Positions 596 to 8,227 of a DNA stretch of 8,227 nt are shown here, piece after piece. Position 1 is the stretch's first letter, and each line of letters begins with the position of its first letter. The position numbers and the translations under genes were made by a program. Under the pieces are notes generated by a model. The model was given only the letters and a program-made list of their open reading frames with translations, was not told where the DNA came from and ran no database searches. The stretch comes from Phycisphaerales bacterium. Its GTDB lineage: Bacteria; Planctomycetota; Phycisphaerae; Phycisphaerales; UBA1924. The stretch covers positions 1-8,227 of the forward strand of contig JAIEQQ010000263.1 of NCBI GenBank assembly GCA_019747615.1, read 5' to 3'.

Positions 596-599
596 GGCG

Positions 600-641
600 A
601 GCGTTGAGCGTTGAGCGCTGAGTGCTGAGCGCTGAGTGGGA
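600..641. repeat. Heptamer tandem array, AGCGYTG type
   Basis: Starting five bases after the stop codon at 593-595, the units are AGCGTTG, AGCGTTG, AGCGCTG, AGTGCTG and AGCGCTG (600-634), followed by a drifted unit AGTGGGA (635-641). The period is exactly 7. Related units recur at 3745-3785. Confidence 0.85.
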
Positions 642-644
642 AGG

Positions 645-672
645 CACTGGGGACTGGGCAATGGGCACCGGG
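645..672 (+). repeat. Heptamer array CAMYGGG x4, G-quadruplex motif
   Basis: Four heptamers in a row are CACTGGG, GACTGGG, CAATGGG and CACCGGG. They place four GGG runs (649-651, 656-658, 663-665, 670-672) with three loops of four bases each. This is the standard G3N4 x3-G3 pattern for an intramolecular G-quadruplex on the plus strand, and hence in any plus-strand transcript. It lies about 50 bases after the upstream stop codon. Formation in the cell is inferred. Confidence 0.8.
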
Positions 673-790
673 CGTCGGTGCTGGTTGGCGTTCGCTTTGA
701 CGCTCAGTCGCTCGGCCTTCTGCTGCGGGCTGAACGCTGGTCTCCTGCGTTGATCGCTGTGTGTTGGGGTGAGGCCGGAGGCCCGGTGCC
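664..790. repeat. Distant 10-bp inverted repeat
   Basis: GGCACCGGGC at 664-673 is the exact reverse complement of GCCCGGTGCC at 781-790, with 107 bases between the arms. The left arm overlaps the last G-runs of the quadruplex motif, so the two structures would compete. A 10-bp match can arise by chance in GC-rich DNA, so the significance is uncertain. Confidence 0.4.
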
Positions 791-908
791 GCGGTGGTTT
801 TCAATTGCCGTTTAGCGTTTTTTGCGGTAGTCTCTGGTCTACGGCGCACGGGTTCGTGGGATCAACCGGTTTCGGTTCCCGCGCCGCCGTTCTCGTGGAG
901 TGCTTCAA

Positions 909-3737
909 ATGCTCAGCATCCGTCTGTCGTCGTTGATGTTCGTCGCCGCGGTGGTTTTGGCTCTGGCACCCAGCGCGGCCCGGGCTCAGTGCAACTTCCT
1001 CACGAACCCGCTCAGCCAGGCGGTCTGCCCCGGCGCCAATGTCACATTCACCGCCAGCGCGTTCAACATCAGCGGCAGTCCGACTTATACGTGGTTCCGC
1101 GGCGCGACCGCCGTGGGCTCGGGCTCGACGCTGACGCTCACGAACGTCGATGCGGCAGACGCAGGCTCGTACACCTGCCGCGTGAGCTTTGGTGGGCCGT
1201 TTCCGTGCACCAACACATCCAGCGCCGCGTCGCTCACGGTGCGCACGTTAGCCGGGATCTCGTCCCAGCCAGCCGGCGAGGGCCCCTGCGTCGGCGGGAG
1301 CTTCACGCCATCGGTCACGGCCTCGGGCACCGGCCCGTTCACGTATCAGTGGCGGCGCGGCACCACCAACCTCGCCAACGGGGGACGCATCAGTGGTGCC
1401 ACCTCCCCGAACCTTACCATCAGTGGGGTTGTCGCCGGCGACGCGGCGTTCAACTACAACTGTGTCGTCACCGGGCCGTGCAACTCCGTCACGTCGAGCA
1501 ACTGCATTCTCCTCGTCTTCTCCCCGCACGCCATCAGCTCCCAGCCGGCCAGCCTCAGCCGCTGCGTGGGCGAGTCGGCCTCGTTCACCGTCGGCTTCAC
1601 CGGCTCTCCTTCGAGCTTCCAGTGGAGGCGGGGCACCACCAACCTGACCAATGGCGGCAACATCTCCGGCGCCAACCTCGACGTCCTCACCATTAACCCC
1701 GTCACCCCAGGCGACGATGCCAGTAACTACAACTGCGTCATCACTGGGTCGTGCGCGGCGACCGTCACCAGCAACAACGTTGACCTGAATGTCCAGTCGC
1801 CGGCGGGGTTTACCGCCTATTCCTCGTCCACCGGCTCGGGGATCGTCTGCCAAGGCTCGAACATCAATCTCCAAGTGCTCACGACGGGCACGATCACCGG
1901 CCATCAGTGGCGCCGCGGCACGACGCCCCTGGTCAACGGTGGACGCATCTCCGGGGCGAACACCGCCACGCTCACAATCACCAACTTCCAGCCCGGCGAC
2001 GCCGGAAACAACTTCAACTGCGTGCTGACCAGCCCCTGCGGCGGGCTCACCGCGCCCAACGTCGAGCTCATCAACCGTGTGCCGGTCAACATCGCCGTGT
2101 CCCCGGCCAACGTCATCACCTGCCCCGGGGGCCCGGTTGGGTTGACGGTCTCCGTCACGGGCACGTCGCCGATCTTCCAGTGGCGGAGGATCGGCGCGCC
2201 CTCGCCCCTGGCCGATGGTCCGGGGATCAGCGGCGCGACGACCAACTCGCTCACCCTGGGTGGGACGGGGCTGGTGCAAGGCGACTACGTCTGCGACGTG
2301 ACCAACTCTTGCGGCACGCAGACCTCCACCGCCGCCACGATCACCGTGCGGTCCATCGCGATGACCACGCCACCGGCGGCAGGGACGACCGTCATCATTC
2401 CCAATGGCTTCGTCCTCACCGGCACCGCCACGACCACCCCCGCCAGCGCGATCACCTATGTCTGGAAGCGCAACGACGTCGGCATCTCGTCCGGCGGGCG
2501 CTTCAGCATCTCGCCCGACGGGCGCACGCTCACCGTGCTCTCGACCATCCCCGACGATCTCAATGCGGCCTTCGGATTGACCGCGACGGACATCTGCGGC
2601 AACAGCGTGACGAACACCGTGCCGGTCTTCGCCGTCACCACCACCGAGGCGGAGCCGAACAACACCAAGGCCACGGCGAATCTTCGCAGCCTCGGCGCGG
2701 GCAACTCGATCAGCGGCACAACGACGGCAGCGACCGATGCGAACGATTACTTCCGGTTCATCCTGCCGCAGGACTCGGGCATCTCGCGCTGGCAGCTCGC
2801 GGTCGTGAGCGGGAACCAACTGCTCCGGCTGCGCGGGCTCGGGCAGGCGGCCGGCGTGCCGCAGGTGGCCACCGACACAGTCTTCCAATCTGTCTCCTCG
2901 AGTCAGCCGCTGGTGTGGTACACCAGCGGCGCCGCCACGCCACAGCTCTATGTCTCGGTAGAGGCTGCCCCGGGTACGGGCCCGACGCCGTACGTCCTGC
3001 AGCTGACGCGCACGGACGTGACGCCCGATGTCTTCCCGGTGGTCATCCCGCCCGGCTCGGTCAGGTTCACCACAGAGGGAGCTGTTTCGACCCCGGATAC
3101 CGAGATCTGGCTCTACGACGCGCAGTTCAACGCGATCGAAGGCGCCGGGAACGATGGCGACCCGATCAGCAGCATCTTCAACGTTGTGCTGAATCGGACA
3201 CTTGCCGCCGGTGACTATTACATCGCCCACGCTCGGTTCAACACGTCCAGCAGCCTCCCCAACCCGCCCGACGATTTCTACCGCGGCAATGATCTCTTGG
3301 AGTTCCCCGGCGTCATCGCGTGCAACACCAACACGCCCCCCGCAAGCCTCACCTTCCGCGCCGGGCCCGCCGCGGGCACGCTCACGACCTTCACACCCAC
3401 CGTTCCGGCCGGTGCGTTCTCCATCGCCTGGACGAAGGTCACCATCGGCAACCCACGCTGCAACCCCGCGGACATCGCCTACGACACCGGCGAGCCGCTG
3501 CCGCCGATCGGCCCCACCGGCCCATCGCTTGTGAACAACGGCGTGACCGAGGGCGACTACAACCTCTTCTTCGCCAACTTCTTCGACGCCAACCCCGTCT
3601 GCGACATCGCCGCGGACGCAGGCGAACCGCTCCCGCCCTTCGGCAACGGTGGCATCGACCCCTTCGTCAACAACGGCGTAACCGAAGGCGACTACAACGT
3701 GTTCTTCAGCATCTTCTTTAGCGGCTGCGCGTTCTGA
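909..3737 (+). CDS. Large secreted multi-Ig-domain protein with PPC-like domains and duplicated tail
   Basis: The product has 942 residues. The ATG at 909 is chosen because GGAG (897-900) sits 8 bases upstream; an in-frame GTG at 900 is less likely. A signal peptide covers residues 1-26 (hydrophobic 9-20, cleavage after ARA). Six Ig-like domains follow at about 27-112, 113-205, 206-297, 298-391, 392-482 and 483-579. Domains 2-4 share 'QWRRGTT.L.NGG.ISGA' (from 147, 238 and 333) and 'NCV.T..C', which suggests internal duplication. Residues 580-700 begin EAEPNNTKATANL and contain DANDYF, as in bacterial pre-peptidase C-terminal domains. Residues 707-844 contain 'DTEIWLYDAQFNAIEGAGNDGD' in two parts and 'LAAGDYYIAHARF', resembling DVUA0089-type domains. 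Residues 850-942 are the duplicated NNGVTEGDYN tail shared with the gene upstream. No catalytic domain is visible. An adhesive or structural extracellular role is inferred. Confidence 0.9.
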   Translation: MLSIRLSSLMFVAAVVLALAPSAARAQCNFLTNPLSQAVCPGANVTFTASAFNISGSPTYTWFRGATAVGSGSTLTLTNVDAADAGSYTCRVSFGGPFPCTNTSSAASLTVRTLAGISSQPAGEGPCVGGSFTPSVTASGTGPFTYQWRRGTTNLANGGRISGATSPNLTISGVVAGDAAFNYNCVVTGPCNSVTSSNCILLVFSPHAISSQPASLSRCVGESASFTVGFTGSPSSFQWRRGTTNLTNGGNISGANLDVLTINPVTPGDDASNYNCVITGSCAATVTSNNVDLNVQSPAGFTAYSSSTGSGIVCQGSNINLQVLTTGTITGHQWRRGTTPLVNGGRISGANTATLTITNFQPGDAGNNFNCVLTSPCGGLTAPNVELINRVPVNIAVSPANVITCPGGPVGLTVSVTGTSPIFQWRRIGAPSPLADGPGISGATTNSLTLGGTGLVQGDYVCDVTNSCGTQTSTAATITVRSIAMTTPPAAGTTVIIPNGFVLTGTATTTPASAITYVWKRNDVGISSGGRFSISPDGRTLTVLSTIPDDLNAAFGLTATDICGNSVTNTVPVFAVTTTEAEPNNTKATANLRSLGAGNSISGTTTAATDANDYFRFILPQDSGISRWQLAVVSGNQLLRLRGLGQAAGVPQVATDTVFQSVSSSQPLVWYTSGAATPQLYVSVEAAPGTGPTPYVLQLTRTDVTPDVFPVVIPPGSVRFTTEGAVSTPDTEIWLYDAQFNAIEGAGNDGDPISSIFNVVLNRTLAAGDYYIAHARFNTSSSLPNPPDDFYRGNDLLEFPGVIACNTNTPPASLTFRAGPAAGTLTTFTPTVPAGAFSIAWTKVTIGNPRCNPADIAYDTGEPLPPIGPTGPSLVNNGVTEGDYNLFFANFFDANPVCDIAADAGEPLPPFGNGGIDPFVNNGVTEGDYNVFFSIFFSGCAF

Positions 3738-3744
3738 AAGGCGG

Positions 3745-3785
3745 AGTGCTGAGCGATAGCGCTGAGTGCTGAAGGCTGAAGGCTC
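3745..3785. repeat. Heptamer array, AGTGCTG/AAGGCTG type, between convergent genes
   Basis: The units are AGTGCTG, AGCGAT (one base short), AGCGCTG, AGTGCTG, AAGGCTG and AAGGCTC. The array starts seven bases after the plus-strand stop codon (3735-3737) and ends ten bases before the end of the minus-strand gene at 3796. The last units grade from the AGCGYTG family toward the AAAGCTC family seen at 4882-4930. Confidence 0.75.
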
Positions 3786-3795
3786 CCCGCCCCCC

Positions 3796-4089
3796 TCACG
3801 CGCTCAAGTCGATGTGCGGCTTCTCGTCGTCGGGCTTTGGCGTTGGTGGCGGCGCGTGGCGGCGGCGGTCGTCCGCCGCTTCCTCTTGCCCCTCGCCCGC
3901 GAGCCGCTTGCTCAGCTCCACCGAGTCGGTGGACTCGACCGTGTCGATCAGCTCGCGATCGCTCTCAGCCCCAGTCGCGGCACCGATCCGGCGTGACGCC
4001 TTCGGCTTCGTCCGGTCCACGTCGCGCGGACTCGGGACGCCGCTCAAGTTGGATGGGCCAAACATGGTCACAGGAGAAAGATCGGTCAT
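3796..4089 (-). CDS. Small hydrophilic protein of unknown function
   Basis: The minus strand encodes a 97-residue protein starting MTDLSPVTMFGPSNL and ending PHIDLSA. It is rich in Asp, Glu, Lys and Arg, has no hydrophobic segment and looks largely disordered; the middle reads 'ESDRELIDTVESTDSVELSK' and the end is Pro/Asp/Lys-rich. Codons are mostly G- or C-ended, and the composition is that of a real protein rather than an antisense shadow. The frame stays open upstream to 4218, but that part (Arg/Ser-rich) looks non-coding, so the ATG at 4087-4089 is preferred although its ribosome binding site is weak. The 'DSVELS' stretch loosely recalls the N-terminal region of FlgM-type anti-sigma factors, but the conserved C-terminal half of that family is absent, so no function is assigned. 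It is convergent with the Ig protein (58-bp gap) and divergent from the lipoprotein gene. Confidence 0.6.
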   Translation of the reverse strand: MTDLSPVTMFGPSNLSGVPSPRDVDRTKPKASRRIGAATGAESDRELIDTVESTDSVELSKRLAGEGQEEAADDRRRHAPPPTPKPDDEKPHIDLSA

Positions 4090-4235
4090 CGGCCGCCGGT
4101 TTCTCAAGGAATCCGATGAGGACGGGCGGGCGCTATTGTCCGAAACCGCGTCAGTGGGCCCAGAATCGGCCCATCGTGCCCTCTGTCGCGTTCCGCTCGC
4201 TCGTCCCTCGATGTGCATTCACCACGGAGCTTCCG

Positions 4236-4808
4236 ATGACACTCGTTCCCGCCGCCCGCGTCGCGTCTGCCCTGATTGTGCTGTCGGCCTTTGTCGGGCT
4301 CGCCGGATGTCGCTCGGCAGAGAAGCTCGAGCCCGCACCGGCGGCGCTCGTCTTGCCTGACTCGGCCAAGCCCGATGCGAAGCTCGCGCCACTGGCCTTC
4401 ATGGCCGGCAGTTGGGTCTGCGTGAACCCCAACAAGACCGTCAACGAGGAACACTGGATGCCCGCGCGTGGCAGCGTCATGATCGGCACCTTCCGCCAGG
4501 TCCGTCGCGACGGCAAGTGCTCCTTCGTCGAGGTCTCACAGATCGCCCTTGACGGAGATGAGATCGTGCTTCGTCTGCGGCACCTTCACACGAAGCTGGA
4601 AGTCCCGCCCGAGCGCGCCGAGATCTCGCTCTTCAAGATCAAGTCCATCGCGCCCAATCGCGTCGAGTTTGTCGGCACCGGCGACGCCGAGGGCGTGCTC
4701 GGCGTGGTGTACGAACGCGTGAACGCGACGACGCTGACGCAGACGGTGTCGTTCGATCCGGCCAAATCGAAGGAGAAGCCGTTCACGTCGACGTACACGC
4801 GGCAGTGA
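4236..4808 (+). CDS. Lipoprotein resembling DUF6265 family
   Basis: The product has 190 residues. The ATG at 4236 follows GGAG (4226-4229) with a 6-base spacer. Residues 1-24 form a lipoprotein signal peptide with the lipobox LAGC, so Cys25 would be lipidated after cleavage by signal peptidase II; the +2 residue is Arg. After a Pro/Ala-rich linker (26-50), the domain begins 'LAPLAFMAGSWVC' (50-62) and continues with 'NEEHWMPARGSVMIGTFRQV' (70-89). This matches the usual pattern of DUF6265-type proteins: a 'FLAG.W' opening, then 'EE.W.....G.M.G..R'. The rest is predicted beta-rich and ends 'FTSTYTRQ'. The family has a lipocalin-like look but no established reaction. The frame continues upstream to 3837, but that region overlaps the minus-strand gene and reads as low-complexity noise. 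The gene stands alone, divergent from the 97-residue gene; no clear promoter is seen in the 146-bp gap. Confidence 0.85.
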   Translation: MTLVPAARVASALIVLSAFVGLAGCRSAEKLEPAPAALVLPDSAKPDAKLAPLAFMAGSWVCVNPNKTVNEEHWMPARGSVMIGTFRQVRRDGKCSFVEVSQIALDGDEIVLRLRHLHTKLEVPPERAEISLFKIKSIAPNRVEFVGTGDAEGVLGVVYERVNATTLTQTVSFDPAKSKEKPFTSTYTRQ

Positions 4809-4815
4809 GCGGGGC

Positions 4816-4839
4816 AGTGGCAGAGTGGCAGAGTGTGGG
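4816..4839. repeat. Octamer repeat AGTGGCAG x2 plus drifted unit
   Basis: AGTGGCAG occurs at 4816-4823 and 4824-4831, followed by AGTGTGGG. It begins eight bases after the lipoprotein stop codon. The same unit in another phase (AGAGTGGC/AAAGTGGC) recurs at 5941-5972. Confidence 0.7.
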
Positions 4840-4859
4840 GCAGGCGTCCCGCCTGCCTC
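4837..4859. repeat. REP-like GC-rich hairpin between convergent genes
   Basis: GGCAGGCG (4839-4846), a 3-base loop TCC, then CGCCTGCC (4850-4857) give a perfect 8-bp stem. It extends to about 10 bp with one G-T pair and one G-C pair. There is no T tract, so it is not a textbook intrinsic terminator. It could act as a bidirectional transcript end or be a dispersed REP-type palindrome. Confidence 0.65.
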
Positions 4860-4881
4860 ACGCAGACTCACGGCGAATCCC

Positions 4882-4946
4882 AAAGCTCAAAGCTCAAAGC
4901 TCAAAGCTCAAAGCTCAAAGCTCAAAGCTCAAAGCAGCAAAGCAGC
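4882..4946. repeat. AAAGCTC x7 then AAAGCAGC x2 tandem array
   Basis: Seven exact copies of AAAGCTC (4882-4930) are followed directly by two exact copies of AAAGCAGC (4931-4946). The array lies between two convergent genes, the lipoprotein ending at 4808 and the hydrolase ending at 4983. The array at 7547-7585 uses the same two units in the opposite order. The perfect copies imply recent expansion. There are no spacers, so this is not CRISPR. Confidence 0.95.
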
Positions 4947-4982
4947 ACATCGGATGGGTCCGTTCTTGTTCGCGTGGCGTGG

Positions 4983-5888
4983 TCACGCGTGAGACATTTC
5001 GGGCGCGCGCCGGCGGCGCGAGTGCGCGAGGATGCCGAAGGCCAGTGCGAAGGCCGCGCCGGGCGCGGGGATGATTTGGTTGGCGATGACTTGGTAGCCC
5101 GCCGCGGTGGGGTGGACGTTGGGCTGTGTCGTGGTCTGGTCCAGCAACATGTTGGTCAGCGTGGCCTCGTTGCCGAGGAACGCACTGGCGGTCTCGACGT
5201 ATCGGGCGCCAATGCTCGCGGCCGAGGCCTGGATGATCTGGTTCAGCGCGTTGACTGCGCCGGCGGTGAACGCGGGGTTGGGGTTGCCGGGGAGGATCGC
5301 GAACGGGTCGTAATAGCCCACGGCGATGATGTCCGCAGTGGGCAGGGCGGCGCGGAGGCTGGCGTAGATCGTGCCGATGTTGGTTTGTGCCGTGTTCAGC
5401 GCGCCAAACACCAGCGCCGCCTGCGTCGTCTCGGGCAGGCTGATGAAGCCGGGCAACTGCACGACGCCGAGCAGGTCGTTGGCACCCAGCGAGATGGTGA
5501 CGCGTTGCACGGGCGCGCCGTTCAGCGCGGCCTGCGTGATCGTGCTGGTGATGAAGTTCGCCTGCGTCGTCAGCCCCGGGAACGGCGGGTAGTTCGTGTT
5601 CAGCGCGCGGGCCGGGTTCGAGAGGTTTGAGAAACTCGTCGAGTCATCGCCGAAGATCGACGCGTTCACGACGGTCGGGCGGAGGCCGGCGTTCTGCGTC
5701 GCGAGGTAGTCGGCGTAGAGCGAGACGTAGCCGCGGTCGCCGTTGGATGGCTGGGTGTACGACGCGCCGTTGGTGATCCCGAAGCCGACGGAGTCGCCGA
5801 TGGCGAGATAGGTGTACGGCGTCTGGGCGACGGCGCTGGAGACAAGTCCGGCGACAACGACAAACGACAGAGCAAGCTGGCTGCGCAT
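4983..5888 (-). CDS. Secreted SGNH/GDSL-family hydrolase with PEP-CTERM-like tail
   Basis: The product has 301 residues. The ATG (5886-5888) is preceded on the minus strand by AGGAG with a 7-base spacer, which sets the start. Residues 1-21 are a signal peptide ending AVA, with Gln22 first in the mature protein. Block I is 'LAIGDSVGFG' (28-37) with the nucleophile Ser33; block II has Gly80 in 'NASIFGDDS'; block III is 'LGAND' with Asn137; block V is 'NVHPTAAGY' with His259. These are the four SGNH residues, so an esterase or lipase acting on acylated substrates outside the cytoplasm is likely. The Asp normally three residues before the His is Pro256 here; Asn257 and Asp250 are nearby. The end, 'IIPAPGAAFALAFG' plus RRRR (273-294), is a PEP-CTERM-like anchor, with an unusual seven-residue extension (APEMSHA). 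Substrate unknown. Confidence 0.9.
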   Translation of the reverse strand: MRSQLALSFVVVAGLVSSAVAQTPYTYLAIGDSVGFGITNGASYTQPSNGDRGYVSLYADYLATQNAGLRPTVVNASIFGDDSTSFSNLSNPARALNTNYPPFPGLTTQANFITSTITQAALNGAPVQRVTISLGANDLLGVVQLPGFISLPETTQAALVFGALNTAQTNIGTIYASLRAALPTADIIAVGYYDPFAILPGNPNPAFTAGAVNALNQIIQASAASIGARYVETASAFLGNEATLTNMLLDQTTTQPNVHPTAAGYQVIANQIIPAPGAAFALAFGILAHSRRRRAPEMSHA

Positions 5889-5940
5889 CTCAACACTCCT
5901 TCGGGTTGGCCCGCCGAGAGAGAGGCGGGGAGCGGATTGT

Positions 5941-5972
5941 AGAGTGGCAAAGTGGCAAAGTGCCAGAGTGGG
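5941..5972. repeat. Octamer array AGAGTGGC/AAAGTGGC in a divergent promoter region
   Basis: The units are AGAGTGGC, AAAGTGGC, AAAGTGCC and AGAGTGGG. It sits about 50 bases upstream of the hydrolase start. On the minus strand it abuts a -10-like hexamer TACAAT (plus-strand 5936-5941), so the repeats would occupy the -35 and upstream region of that gene. No good -35 hexamer is seen at 16-18 bases. Confidence 0.7.
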
Positions 5973-6017
5973 GGCCGGCGTGGCTTGGTTTTGCCGCAGA
6001 TGTCTGTGCCATTTCCG

Positions 6018-6045
6018 TTGACGTCTCGCTGATGGGGTGTATATT
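6018..6045 (+). promoter_or_regulatory. Sigma-70-like promoter for the DUF642-type gene
   Basis: TTGACG (6018-6023) and TATATT (6040-6045) each match the consensus hexamers at five of six positions, with a 16-base spacer. Transcription would start near 6052 and leave a leader of roughly 80 bases before the ATG at 6131. This is the clearest promoter in the window. Confidence 0.6.
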
Positions 6046-6103
6046 GACTGACCGTCGCGATAACTCGCGGCCACTCACAAACACCAGACAATACCCGAGG
6101 AGG

Positions 6104-6128
6104 GAGAGACCACACCCAGGAGTCTCTC
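6104..6128 (+). promoter_or_regulatory. Leader hairpin overlapping the ribosome binding site
   Basis: GAGAGAC (6104-6110) pairs with GTCTCTC (6122-6128) around an 11-base loop that holds most of the AGGAG ribosome binding site (6118-6122). The stem ends two bases before the ATG at 6131. It could modulate translation, but 7 bp is modest and the effect is inferred. Confidence 0.4.
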
Positions 6129-6130
6129 GC

Positions 6131-6820
6131 ATGTTCGCCCTCGCATCCCGCCGTCGCCTTTCTCCCAACTTCACCGCCGCTCGCCCCGCGATGCTGGCTT
6201 GCGTTGCCGCCGCGATCGGCGGGCTGGCGGCCTCGGCCCATGCGACTGTGACCAATGGCTCGTTCGAGTTGCCGCCTGTCACCCCGGGCACGTTCTCCGT
6301 GTTTGGCGGCGGATCGACGAGCATCACCGGCTGGACGGTGGTGGGGGGCAACGTGGCGGTGATCAGCGCGTCGTACGTTGAAGGAGGGGTCACCTTCAAC
6401 GCGCAGAGCGGTGCACAGTGGCTGGACCTGACCGGGACCGGCTCGAACTCATTGAGCAACGGCGTGTCGCAGGACGTGGCCACCACGATCGGGCAACTCT
6501 ACCGGCTGTCGTTCTACGTCGGCTCGGCGACTGACAACAACTCGTTTTCCGCATCGACGGTGGACCTCAGCATCGGCGGGGGTGGCCGCGCGAGCTTTAC
6601 GAACCCCACCGCGCCGCGAACCACGATGGACTGGCAGTTGTTCACGGCCGACTTCACCGCCACCAGCACGCTGACGAACATCACGTTCTTCAACGGCAGC
6701 GCGCCGAACAACAACCTCAGCGGCCTTGACAACGTGACGCTGGCGGTGATCCCGGCGCCGGGCGCGGCGGCATTGCTGGGTCTCTGTGGGTTGCTCGCGG
6801 CGCGTCGTCGTCGAGCGTGA
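6131..6820 (+). CDS. DUF642/choice-of-anchor-like secreted protein with PEP-CTERM-like tail
   Basis: The product has 229 residues. The ATG at 6131 has AGGAG (6118-6122) with an 8-base spacer. A long signal peptide (1-38, Arg-rich n-region with RRR at 7-9, hydrophobic 21-36) ends AHA. The mature part opens 'TNGSFELPPVTPGTF', then 'ITGWTVVGGNVAVISASYV' (65-83), 'AQWLDLTGTG' (95-104), 'GVSQDVATTIGQLYRLSFYVG' in two adjoining parts (111-131) and 'GLDNVTL' (198-204). This is the motif order of DUF642 and choice-of-anchor C proteins, a galactose-binding-like beta-sandwich family associated with cell-wall carbohydrates. Residues 207-228, 'IPAPGAAALLGLCGLLAARRRR', are a PEP-CTERM-like sorting tail: a Pro-rich motif, a membrane segment and a basic cluster. 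A surface or matrix location with glycan binding is inferred. It is divergent from the hydrolase and probably has its own promoter at 6018-6045. An upstream in-frame extension to 5906 is not credible. Confidence 0.88.
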   Translation: MFALASRRRLSPNFTAARPAMLACVAAAIGGLAASAHATVTNGSFELPPVTPGTFSVFGGGSTSITGWTVVGGNVAVISASYVEGGVTFNAQSGAQWLDLTGTGSNSLSNGVSQDVATTIGQLYRLSFYVGSATDNNSFSASTVDLSIGGGGRASFTNPTAPRTTMDWQLFTADFTATSTLTNITFFNGSAPNNNLSGLDNVTLAVIPAPGAAALLGLCGLLAARRRRA

Positions 6821-6901
6821 GTCGAATGCGGATCGGCGTCAGCGTCATCATCCATGGCGTTCCGTCGGTAAGCTGTCCCTAGGAGTGTCTCGCGGCCGAA
6901 G

Positions 6902-7540
6902 GTGCGTGGCGTGGCCGCGGGCCTGACGGCGTCGGCCGCCTATGCCGGCGACCCGAGCCCGTTCCTCACCGGCTTCCTGCTCTACCGCAGCAACGCCGAC
7001 GGTTCGGCCAACAACAACCCCGCCTATTTCTACACCACCAACGGTAACATCGGCGCTGCTCGCCAGACGCTGACACCCTCCATCGGGCCCGCGCAGACCG
7101 TGGGGATCAGCTTCTTGCTGACGCCAGGCGCAAACACGTTCACGTTCGCGACCAACTTTCCGGTCGACCCCGGTCTCTTCGCCGGCGTGCAGCTCTACTT
7201 CAACACGACGGGAACACCCTTTCAGCCGATCGGTGCAGGCGTCGCGCCTGACCTGGCGGCCTTCGTCGGGACCAGCTCGCCTTCGCCGCTGGCCAACCCG
7301 GCGGCCGGGGCGGGCATCATCGACTTCGGAAACAGCTTCGGCCCGCTGGCTGCGTACAGCGGCGCGACCTCCGTGACCGTCGGCAACTGGGTGATCAGCG
7401 TCAGCGCGCTCAGCATCAACCGGACACCCACGGGCTCGATGACGCTCTCGGTCGTCGCCATCCCGAGTCCGGCCGCGGCGGCGCTGCTGGGTCTTGGCGG
7501 GCTGATGGCGGCGGGTGGGGGGCGGCGGCGGCGGCGCTGA
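6902..7540 (+). CDS. PEP-CTERM-like protein with truncated or degenerate N-terminus
   Basis: The product has 212 residues if started at GTG 6902; GTG 6911 is the only other near start. The body has no family that I recognise; it is Asn/Thr/Gly/Ala-rich and likely beta-structured, as in 'NTFTFATNFPVDPG' and 'VTVGNWVISVSALSI'. The end (187-212) is 'IPSPAAAALLGLGGLMAAGG' followed by Gly and five Arg, a PEP-CTERM-like anchor. The start is odd. Residues 1-15 look like only the back half of a signal peptide (VAAGLTASAAYA, then Gly16), with no basic n-region. An in-frame stop (6869-6871) blocks extension to the ATG at 6854. AGGAGTGTCTCGC (6881-6893) nearly matches the leader of the preceding gene, where ATG follows at once, but no start codon follows here. 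The start may have been deleted. Secretion is therefore uncertain. Confidence 0.7.
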   Translation: MRGVAAGLTASAAYAGDPSPFLTGFLLYRSNADGSANNNPAYFYTTNGNIGAARQTLTPSIGPAQTVGISFLLTPGANTFTFATNFPVDPGLFAGVQLYFNTTGTPFQPIGAGVAPDLAAFVGTSSPSPLANPAAGAGIIDFGNSFGPLAAYSGATSVTVGNWVISVSALSINRTPTGSMTLSVVAIPSPAAAALLGLGGLMAAGGGRRRRR

Positions 7541-7546
7541 GCGGGC

Positions 7547-7585
7547 AAAGCAGCAAAGCAGCAAAGCAGCAAAGCAGCAAAGCTC
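7547..7585. repeat. AAAGCAGC x4 then AAAGCTC x1 tandem array
   Basis: Four exact AAAGCAGC copies (7547-7578) are followed by one AAAGCTC (7579-7585). The array begins six bases after the stop codon of the preceding gene and lies between convergent genes. The units are those of the array at 4882-4946, in reversed order and different copy number. Confidence 0.95.
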
Positions 7586-7606
7586 AAACCTTGAAGCAGT
7601 AGAGCT

Positions 7607-7631
7607 CAGATTTCAGATTTGAAATTTCAAA
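7607..7631. repeat. AT-rich heptamers and a 14-bp perfect palindrome
   Basis: CAGATTT (7607-7613), CAGATTT (7614-7620) and GAAATTT (7621-7627) continue the 7-base period. They overlap the perfect palindrome TTTGAAATTTCAAA (7618-7631). This AT-rich island stands out in GC-rich DNA and ends six bases before the minus-strand gene end at 7637. Confidence 0.75.
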
Positions 7632-7636
7632 GGAGT

Positions 7637-8227
7637 TCAATGCCGTGCGCCGTTGAGTTTGGTGGGCGGTGCCTTTGCGCGCTGCGCGAGATGGGGCGGT
7701 GGGAGGAAGGGGAAGTTGACGATTTGGGGGCCGCGCGGTGGGGGCGGTGCCGGGGCGCGGGGTGCTGTCGCTGACCCTTGTGGCTTGGGGACTTGCGATC
7801 TGTCCTCGTGGGAATCGGGGGCGAGCGGTTGGTCGGCGGCACCGACCTGAGGACAGGTCGGTGGCACGGGGAGGGGCGCCGTTGGGTCGACGGCGAGGGT
7901 GCTTGCAGTTTGGTGAGGCCCGCCTTGGAAAGACGCGCCCCCTGGTGCTGATGGCGCGGGGAGTTTGGTGCGGAGTTCGCGGAGGGGTGTGGTGGCGGCG
8001 CGGCGGCCGCTGATTTCGTCGAGGTTGAAGGCGGCGATGTGGGTGAGGCGGGCGAGGGCGTTTTCGCGGCGGACGGGAGCCGCGGCGTCGTGGCGGATGG
8101 CGGAAATGACGCGGAGGGCGTCGAGCTCGGCCTGGGCTTCGGGCGATTCGAGAAGTTGCTGGAACGCGACGTACGTGAGCTTGAACTCCGCGGCGATCTC
8201 AGGGATCGTGCGCTCGGAGCGGACGAG
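7637..8227 (-). CDS. Helix-turn-helix-like protein with Pro-rich tail, 5' partial
   Basis: The minus strand is open from the window edge to a TGA at 7637-7639, giving the last 196 residues. Visible residues 1-95 are helical: 'RTIPEIAAEFKLTYVAFQQL' (6-25) looks like a helix-turn-helix ('..IAAEF.L....F..LL'), followed by 'SPEAQAELDALR' and a helical block with 'RRENALARLTHIAAFNLDEI'. Codons are mostly G- or C-ended, as in the neighbouring genes. Residues from about 98 on are low-complexity, rich in Pro, Ala and Gln, and probably disordered. The tail coding region includes a 24-bp palindrome (7840-7863), encoded within 'VPPTCPQVGAAD', which may be an inserted REP-like element. A DNA-binding or phage-terminase-small-subunit-like role is possible, but no family can be named from this fragment. 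The gene is convergent with the PEP-CTERM-like gene ending at 7540. Confidence 0.7.
   Translation of the reverse strand, partial: LVRSERTIPEIAAEFKLTYVAFQQLLESPEAQAELDALRVISAIRHDAAAPVRRENALARLTHIAAFNLDEISGRRAATTPLRELRTKLPAPSAPGGASFQGGPHQTASTLAVDPTAPLPVPPTCPQVGAADQPLAPDSHEDRSQVPKPQGSATAPRAPAPPPPRGPQIVNFPFLPPPHLAQRAKAPPTKLNGARH
7840..7863. repeat. REP-like palindrome inside a coding region
   Basis: CACCGACCTG (7840-7849), loop AGGA, CAGGTCGGTG (7854-7863): a perfect 10-bp stem. It lies in the low-complexity tail of the minus-strand gene and keeps its frame open. Confidence 0.75.

Follow-up and report, generated by a model that had tools for sequence, protein, structure and literature searches.

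Tandem arrays in the gaps between the genes of the window

The window that we analyzed is an 8,227-base stretch of contig JAIEQQ010000263.1 from a Phycisphaerales bacterium, and the feature under study is a set of short tandem arrays whose units are 7 or 8 bases long. The genes of the window encode, among others, an Ig-domain protein with a dockerin-like end, a DUF6265 protein, a GDSL esterase and a DUF642 protein, and the arrays occupy the gaps between them. For array detection we used a lag-match scan over periods 4-20 together with Tandem Repeats Finder (TRF), and both recovered the window arrays. At a lag score of at least 12, the window contains arrays of periods 7, 8, 14 and 16 only. Shuffled versions of the window (200 each at order 1 and order 3) contain at most 0.02 arrays per period, so the arrays of period 7-8 that the initial annotation described are real. 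Lowering the score to 10 adds one period-6 run and one period-15 run, and TRF lists five further weak rows (periods 3, 10, 12, 15 and 18), each within predicted genes. The arrays and the hairpin that accompanies them, followed by the genes beside them, are as follows.

599-636, plus strand: period-7 array of 5.4 copies (AGCGTTG/AGCGCTG/AGTGCTG), 3 bases past the TAA ending at 595, in sense orientation (TRF, lag scan)
643-673, plus strand: degenerate period-7 array of GGCACTG type, 4.4 copies with 79% matches, next after the 599-636 array (TRF)
3745-3784, no strand assigned: degenerate array occupying much of the 58-base convergent gap 3738-3795 (by reading; lag-7 run at 3761-3784)
4816-4835, plus strand: period-8 array, AGTGGCAG x2.5, 7 bases past the stop ending at 4808 (TRF)
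4835-4857, plus strand: GTGG-tagged hairpin resembling a repetitive extragenic palindromic (REP) element, GGCAGGCG TCC CGCCTGCC (whole: GGCAGGCGTCCCGCCTGCC)
4881-4935, plus strand: perfect period-7 array, CAAAGCT x7.9 (TRF)
4930-4947, plus strand: period-8 continuation of the 4881 array, CAAAGCAG, 2.2 copies (TRF)
5943-5971, plus strand: period-8 array, AGTGGCAA x3.6, in the divergent gap 5889-6130, alignable in the relative G005 (TRF)
7545-7583, plus strand: perfect period-8 array, AAAGCAGC x4.9, 4 bases past the stop ending at 7540 (TRF)
7606-7631, no strand assigned: weak period-7 run of TCAGATT/TTTGAAA type, at the opposite edge of the convergent gap that holds the 7545 array (lag score 10)
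900-3737, plus strand: Ig-domain protein gene with a GC-type dockerin-like end (NCBIfam dockerin match below cut-off), upstream of the 3745 array
4233-4808, plus strand: gene for a DUF6265 protein, followed by the 4816 and 4881 arrays
4983-5888, minus strand: GDSL lipase/esterase gene; protein identity 96% in G005 and 61% in the relative G002
6902-7540, plus strand: gene for a protein with no family match, followed by the 7545 array

The initial annotation placed five arrays beside stop codons or in convergent gaps. Three of these placements are clear, with arrays beginning 3-7 bases past the stops at 595, 4808 and 7540, and the array past 3737 is degenerate. The array at 5943 does not fit the description, since it lies in a divergent gap and follows no stop; it stands 54 bases outside the start codon of the GDSL gene on the minus strand and reads away from that start. 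The 4881 array lies in a convergent gap 72 bases past its stop, behind another array and the hairpin. When polarity is set against the unit families of G005, AGTGCTG-like units in the 3745-3784 array point away from the plus-strand stop, and CAGCCTT units (GCTGAAG reverse-complemented) point away from the minus-strand stop. The lag-7 run within this array, 3761-3784, has a score of 11; degenerate units were included when its start was earlier put at 3745. The 3761 and 7606 runs are each marginal by themselves.

Scans of the window against Rfam and for tRNA genes returned no match. A scan for terminator-like sequences found 2 where 5.6 are expected, and one for promoter-like sequences found 1 where 0.4 is expected. 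As judged from the translations, the adjoining proteins encoded at 2-595 and 900-3737 both end in a twofold GVTEGDYN motif and a GC-type dockerin-like tail. The proteins encoded at 4983-5888, 6131-6820 and 6902-7540 have C-termini with PAPGAA/PSPAAA, a hydrophobic stretch and an arginine-rich tail, ends that we take to be PEP-CTERM-like.

Position and orientation of arrays at gene edges in related genomes

Array position was tested on samples of five planctomycete relatives (G005, G002, G015, G149 and G123) and not on the window's own genome, with gap counts covering periods 7, 8, 14 and 16. The G015, G149 and G123 stretches were picked partly where pattern scans had arrays, so their array densities are not representative and the position tests are conditional on arrays being present. 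When the five samples are pooled, 55 of 185 intergenic arrays begin no more than 10 bp past a stop codon, compared with 10.1 expected and a maximum of 19 in 300 simulations. The enrichment at gene 3' ends that had been set beforehand as the test of the initial annotation is thus found in these samples. Each genome contributes to it (25 of 88 arrays in G005, 5.1 expected; 6 of 14 in G002, 0.6 expected; 12 of 32 in G015, 2.2 expected; 4 of 22 in G149, 0.9 expected; 8 of 29 in G123, 1.6 expected). The G054 and G049 samples, which stand outside the pooled count, hold 4 and 1 arrays, of which 0 of 4 and 1 of 1 start this close to a stop. We also considered whether arrays lie near stops simply by carrying them. 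Because the excess persists among arrays without stop trinucleotides on the gene strand (43 of 134 start within 10 bp after a stop), array-borne stops are not the cause.

The G005 sample (791 kb, 527 gaps) contains 46 intergenic arrays of period 7, 23 of period 8 and 19 of period 14, and at most 9 of any other period. Its predicted genes contain 2 arrays of period 7 and 2 of period 8, and these periods are likewise rare in the predicted genes of the G002 sample. Convergent gaps of G005 hold 21.6% of arrays versus 12.7% expected, a share reached in 15 of 1000 simulations, which upholds the earlier claim for such gaps. Divergent gaps hold 11.4% versus 30.7% expected. These distributions bear on the explanation that the arrays are neutral simple-sequence repeats, arising by slippage in place wherever DNA is unconstrained, hence at 3' ends and away from promoters, with no copying and no mechanism of polarity. 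The rarity of arrays in genes and their depletion in divergent gaps agree with it, as do the variation in unit number between orthologs and the absence of significant polarity in three of the five samples, both described below. Mrazek and colleagues reportedly favored, in 2007, the view that repeats of 5-11 bp tend to expand in general. However, random placement in identical gaps fails to yield the excess at 0-10 bp, and neutral repeats do not predict unit-specific polarity at both starts and stops (G005, G015), words that recur at unrelated loci, or the G-runs found in G005. We consider this explanation unlikely, though a serious candidate.

The G-runs lie directly at array-bearing edges. A GGG occurs within the first 6 bases at 44% of the 32 G005 stops with arrays versus 9% of the 374 without, and at 52% of the 21 starts with arrays versus 13% of the 423 without. 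G149 has the same excess at array-bearing stops (40% of 10 vs 10%), and in G123 it is weak (33% of 9 vs 18%). A general G-skew of gene edges was considered and rejected: gaps lacking arrays are unskewed at stops, although weakly skewed over the five bases next to a start.

When read in gene sense, the strand of a given unit in G005 tends to be fixed beside stops and opposite beside starts. In tandem gaps, stop-side arrays are sense in 24 cases and antisense in 5, and start-side arrays are antisense in 17 and sense in 2. Convergent gaps contain 16 sense and 2 antisense arrays, and divergent gaps 4 of each. Measured from the nearest gene edge, 61 of the 74 classified arrays read outward, as do 36 of the 39 within 20 bp of an edge. 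The rule that arrays stand just after stop codons, as first proposed, is therefore borne out by the enrichment at stops but is only part of the pattern, because arrays also stand reversed beside starts (in tandem gaps, 17 of the 19 classified arrays on the start side are antisense).

The labels of the unit families were taken from G005 stop-side arrays, and 14 of the 88 G005 arrays have no family and are omitted from the family counts. Since these labels come from the G005 data themselves, we made a label-free consistency test and a test outside the planctomycetes. Without labels, polarity is consistent for 61 of 71 arrays in G005 (random mean 45.3, maximum 54 of 2000) and for 19 of 21 in G015 (random mean 13.7, maximum 18), the two best-sampled of the array-rich genomes. 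The AGTGGC cluster of G015 reads outward in 13 of 13 cases by the same test.

G005 has 11 labeled unit families plus further units, and identical words recur at unrelated loci. The units do grade into one another, as the initial annotation observed, but they form several recurring families and not a single drifting one. Families without G-tracts account for 45 of the 74 classified arrays, and GGCACTG, GGCAATC and GGGATCG for the other 29. The G-tract families read outward in 9 of 9 (GGGATCG), 11 of 12 (GGCAATC) and 7 of 8 (GGCACTG) cases, or 27 of 29 together. Among the remainder, outward counts are 5 of 5 for AGTGGCA, 3 of 3 for AAAGCTC, 3 of 3 for AGTGCTG, 11 of 13 for CAGCCTT, 6 of 9 for GAGTCGC, 4 of 6 for AAAGCAGC, and 1 of 3 each for CAAATGG and CAACTGA.

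These counts can be set against the possibility that the arrays are G-quadruplex elements, as studied for GGGAATC in Xanthomonas and Nostoc. GGGCACT, GGGAATC and GGGATCGA do have spaced G-tracts, and their families are the strictest in G005 polarity. However, families without G-tracts occupy the same edges and lean alike in G005, and the outward AGTGGC cluster of G015 is of this kind. Since several unrelated units, many without G-tracts, lean the same way, quadruplex formation is highly improbable as the general reason, and a polar process of array birth or copying becomes a testable idea, one that could account for how some genomes fill their intergenic gaps. Protein-binding or helically phased sites, which the initial annotation suggested on the ground that the period is fixed and the sequence changes, are given next to no probability here: periods 7 and 8 would fall out of phase with the helix, the words are diverse, the unit number is labile, and arrays stand at both stops and starts.

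Outside the planctomycetes, we examined loci with exact-pattern matches for ARNGCTS units. Because we chose this pattern ourselves and the figures come from the matches listed, they carry no claim about abundance. Among the matches listed, planctomycetes included, 21 of 73 intergenic arrays have their start no more than 10 bp past a stop (3.4 expected, maximum 11 of 300); the 73 are what remains of 128 pattern arrays after removal of 32 in predicted genes and 23 that were unplaceable (edges of loci or gene calls). With the G005 label, A[AG]TGCTG arrays outside planctomycetes read outward in 23 of 32 listed matches, and in 16 of the 19 that have an edge within 30 bp; since one genome may contribute several loci, the counts are not independent votes. 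By our reading, all 7 AGTGCTG arrays of a Calothrix sample read outward, as do 9 of the 10 of a Chlorobiaceae sample; both genomes were picked via such arrays, and several arrays share one gap. The 16 ARNGCTS variants are used unequally over at least 118 loci, and in 44 of the 121 array sets among the matches listed the most frequent unit is AGTGCTG.

Among 150 relatives of G005, the AGTGGC pattern occurs in 16 genomes, the GGSAWTC pattern in 23 and CAAAGCTCAAAGCTCAAAGC in 6. The distribution is patchy: most genomes have no match, and a few have tens to hundreds. A short contig of another relative, G126, carries a long AGTGGCNN array (C144:4952-5213), and pattern matches in G126 number 27 forward versus 2 reverse.

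Length change, pairing and the origin of the arrays

We compared the window with orthologous loci in G005 and in G002 (Phycisphaerales bacterium bin_9_GBBB08, via locus L064), relatives whose placement rests on one protein, GDSL. Nucleotide identity between G005 and the window is 89-92% in three pieces over 3795-5957. Past the DUF6265 stop, the window has AGTGGCAG x2.5, the hairpin and CAAAGCT x7.9, in this order. The G005 ortholog keeps the order, with the AGTGGCAG array two units longer and 2.9 units of CAAAGCT. In G002, a 76-base CAAAGCT-type array (about 10.9 units) lies 6 bases past the stop, and both the AGTGGCAG array and the hairpin are absent at this locus. Thus, the AAAGCTC (CAAAGCT) array has about 8, 3 and 11 units in the window, G005 and G002, respectively, and the comparison of copy number proposed in the initial annotation, made here with relatives, reveals a difference in whole units. 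A simple reading of the three sequences is that a AGTGGCAG-plus-hairpin module was inserted between the stop and an older CAAAGCT array. On the far side of the CAAAGCT array, and likewise of the 5943 array, alignment with G005 worsens. At the gap 3738-3795 there is a break in synteny, in that the window sequence upstream of the array is not at that place in G005, where a minus-strand open reading frame (ORF) lies instead (L125 13321-13956).

Over the five samples, same-unit arrays sharing a gap form 12 inverted pairs versus 2 direct pairs, and 9 of the 12 inverted pairs come from G005 and G015. This is the pattern expected if arrays are stem-loop arms (terminators or intercistronic hairpins) that are selected as folding inverted pairs. 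G015 provides the clearest support for this explanation, with full palindromes having AGTGGCNN arms (L266:3782-3919, L274:10988-11132, L279:2022-2133 and L280:7103-7236) and far-edge partners that read outward for 14 of 28 arrays versus inward for 1 of 28. Outward far-edge partners are few elsewhere, at 9 of 84 in G005, 5 of 28 in G123, 2 of 22 in G149 and 2 of 13 in G002 (inward 2, 2, 1 and 1), which led us to reject inverted-repeat arms as the whole explanation, and 39 same-gap pairs combine differing families.

Folding was tested in gaps of 50-300 bases, with at most the first 90 array-free gaps per genome for comparison. Fold z values below -3 occur in 44% of 16 array gaps versus 17% of 90 others in G015, 16% of 50 versus 7% of 90 in G005, 23% of 13 versus 10% of 59 in G123, and 22% of 9 versus 8% of 50 in G149. 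In G002 none of 6 array gaps reaches this value, versus 12% of 77 others, and the five window gaps, with z values of -2.3, -2.0, -1.2, -1.9 and +0.2, include none that is markedly low. The suggestion of RNA-end structure in the initial annotation accordingly suits a minority of gaps and not the majority. Structure is part of the picture and not the whole cause; selection of the arrays as stem-loop arms is improbable as their origin, and hairpins may form as a by-product and be put to use in some genomes.

The window hairpin at 4835-4857 carries a GTGG tag, which may stand in for the GTAG tag of REP elements. It has 12 copies in the G005 sample (ortholog included) and 0 in the G002 sample. A 7/8-mer run lies within 70 bases before it in 6 of the 12 G005 copies (AGTGGCA 3, AGTGCTG 2, a GGCCGAG run 1). 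An array might therefore be the 5' part, and the hairpin the tail, of a mobile element similar to REPs or to miniature inverted-repeat transposable elements (MITEs) and moved by a Y1 (REP-associated) transposase. A fixed order of 5'-array-tail-3' would produce polarity relative to an edge, and each of the five sampled array-rich genomes has at least one Y1_Tnp match. By our reading, however, only some families share the tail, and half of the hairpins have no array. The Y1_Tnp domain is present in 108 of the 150 relatives, compared with 16, 23 and 6 for the three array patterns, and the single G005 match is marginal (E 7.2e-6). This distribution lowers the case for a Y1 transposase (REP-associated tyrosine transposase, RAYT) as mover, and we regard such an element as very unlikely.

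Other dispersed sequences were seen as well. The palindrome GGCACCGACCTGAGGACAGGTCGGTGGCAC at 7838-7867 of the window resembles a hairpin dispersed in G005 gaps (e.g., L132 7670-7776 and L134 5437-5702). A MITE-like element, about 160 bp long and palindromic at its ends (CTCTCCCCCGC...CCTCCCCC), is dispersed in the G005 gaps L125 5716-5921, L177 17645-17848, L169 13405-13657 and L181 3048-3337.

Taken together, edge anchoring, unit polarity, recurring words and the one apparent insertion at an edge suggest that slippage-prone arrays of 7- and 8-mers are deposited outward at the edges of genes and are copied from one edge to another. We put the probability of this reading at a little under one half (about 0.47). 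The process would have four parts. New arrays, or array-plus-hairpin modules, would be placed directly outside an ORF, with the unit reading 5' to 3' away from the gene, either past its stop or before its start. They would then lengthen and shorten by whole units, probably through replication slippage, while point mutation would drift them into neighboring units. Unit words would be copied to other gene edges, perhaps by template switching or ectopic conversion that, in some genomes, may be primed at the short G-run. Finally, insertions would be kept only outside ORFs, and an array of the same unit at the opposite edge would form an inverted pair able to fold. A shared generating mechanism, as the initial annotation supposed, is thus plausible, and the data appear to require no dedicated function.

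Several results weigh against outward laying-down and copying between edges. No insertion or copying event was directly caught, and the apparent accretion at the DUF6265 edge is a single locus that could reflect loss in G002. Label-free polarity is not significant in G149 (7 of 10), G123 (8 of 12) or G002 (2 of 3), and with fixed G005 labels G002 arrays are outward in 8 of 12 cases. In G015, the polarity of the AGTGGC units is partly that of the inverted pairs. G005 families without G-tracts are less strict than those with them (34 of 45 outward vs 27 of 29). No excess of G-runs is found at array-bearing stops of G015 (9% of 11 vs 10%) or G002 (0 of 5). Decay on the border side and the interior side of 82 arrays is nearly equal (0.295 vs 0.330) and has no clear direction, so growth at the edge is not visible inside arrays. 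Among the listed matches outside planctomycetes, ARNGCTS units other than A[AG]TGCTG are reversed in 26 of 35 cases, but the 17 that lie within 30 bp of an edge are unbiased, 8 of them reading outward. In addition, the starts and stops of genes in the relatives come from our own simple codon model.

A broader proposal, which we consider quite improbable, is a general bacterial process in which the strand of the preferred unit is synthesized 5' to 3' away from a gene end, as if a 3' end outside the ORF were iteratively copied and rejoined. If this were true, a single activity of repair or copying, common to planctomycetes, cyanobacteria, Chlorobi and further phyla, would have left AGTGCTG arrays of equal polarity in all of them, and it would build intergenic DNA from successive modules, the most recent beside the gene.

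Whatever their origin, the arrays offer variable loci for comparing uncultured planctomycetes.

Comparison with known repeat systems

Tandem heptanucleotide units dispersed in intergenic DNA, as found here, are also the mark of the short tandemly repeated repetitive (STRR) sequences of cyanobacteria, and units resembling theirs, CCCCAGT/CCCCAAT, occur in G005 as well (L126 19767-19796). We know of no place for polarity or edge anchoring in the definition of STRR. Unlike STRR, the arrays belong to a lineage that is not cyanobacterial, judged on one protein only: the GDSL protein is nearest to those of G005 (96%) and the Phycisphaerales genome G002 (61%). Heptanucleotide repeats have been reported for the cyanobacterium Calothrix PCC 7601, as mentioned in PMC4692102.

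Our literature searches for such arrays in planctomycetes found no description among the top-ranked, mostly open-access results. The initial annotation knew of no described equivalent in this lineage, and this agrees with it, but an equivalent is known outside the lineage. According to Rehm et al. 2015 (PMC4692102), the heptamer repeats GGGAATC in Xanthomonas and GGGGA(C/T)T in Nostoc mostly occupy two positions: the coding strand within 50 bp of a stop, and the non-coding strand no more than 50 bp upstream of an ORF. Xanthomonas GGGAATC repeats form convergent inverted pairs, 70 in Xcc and 75 in Xac, and differ in length between orthologous loci; Nostoc has few inverted pairs, and one G-tract unit family was studied per genome (PMC4692102). 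The planctomycete arrays resemble these repeats in being intergenic heptamers with an edge and strand rule, inverted pairs and length change between orthologs, and GGGAATC itself is present here. As in that system, tandem 7-nt units are mainly intergenic, periods 7 and 8 being the commonest in G005 gaps, with octamers also present. The arrangement of sense units after stops and antisense units before starts is found in G005 and G015 and is not significant in G002, G149 and G123, and convergent inverted pairs are found as well. A quadruplex-capable G-tract unit is not the general case, as G-tracts judged from sequence are present in a minority of classified G005 arrays.

Two further systems share features with the arrays. 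The TAACTGA direct repeats of marine Beggiatoaceae (PMC4679880) are abundant and intergenic and have a preferred orientation, with some sets split by related 7-mers. They mostly precede start codons, in a single forward orientation, and those of the largest class end 1 nt ahead of the start (PMC4679880), unlike the planctomycete arrays, which are anchored at gene edges, chiefly stops, and are antisense on the start side. The window hairpin is like the GTAG-tagged REP elements of PMC3733652 in its tag and its repetition in G005. REPs are palindromes (PMC3733652), unlike the arrays, which are tandem 7/8-mers; only the hairpin is REP-like.

Unlike the repeats of Rehm et al., the planctomycete arrays comprise 11 labeled families and further units in one genome, include both 7-mers and 8-mers, many without G-tracts, and add the edge G-run of some genomes and the array-plus-hairpin modules. 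The edge and strand rule was known before for G-tract heptamers, and what is new here is its less strict extension to several unrelated units within one genome, octamers and G-tract-free units among them.

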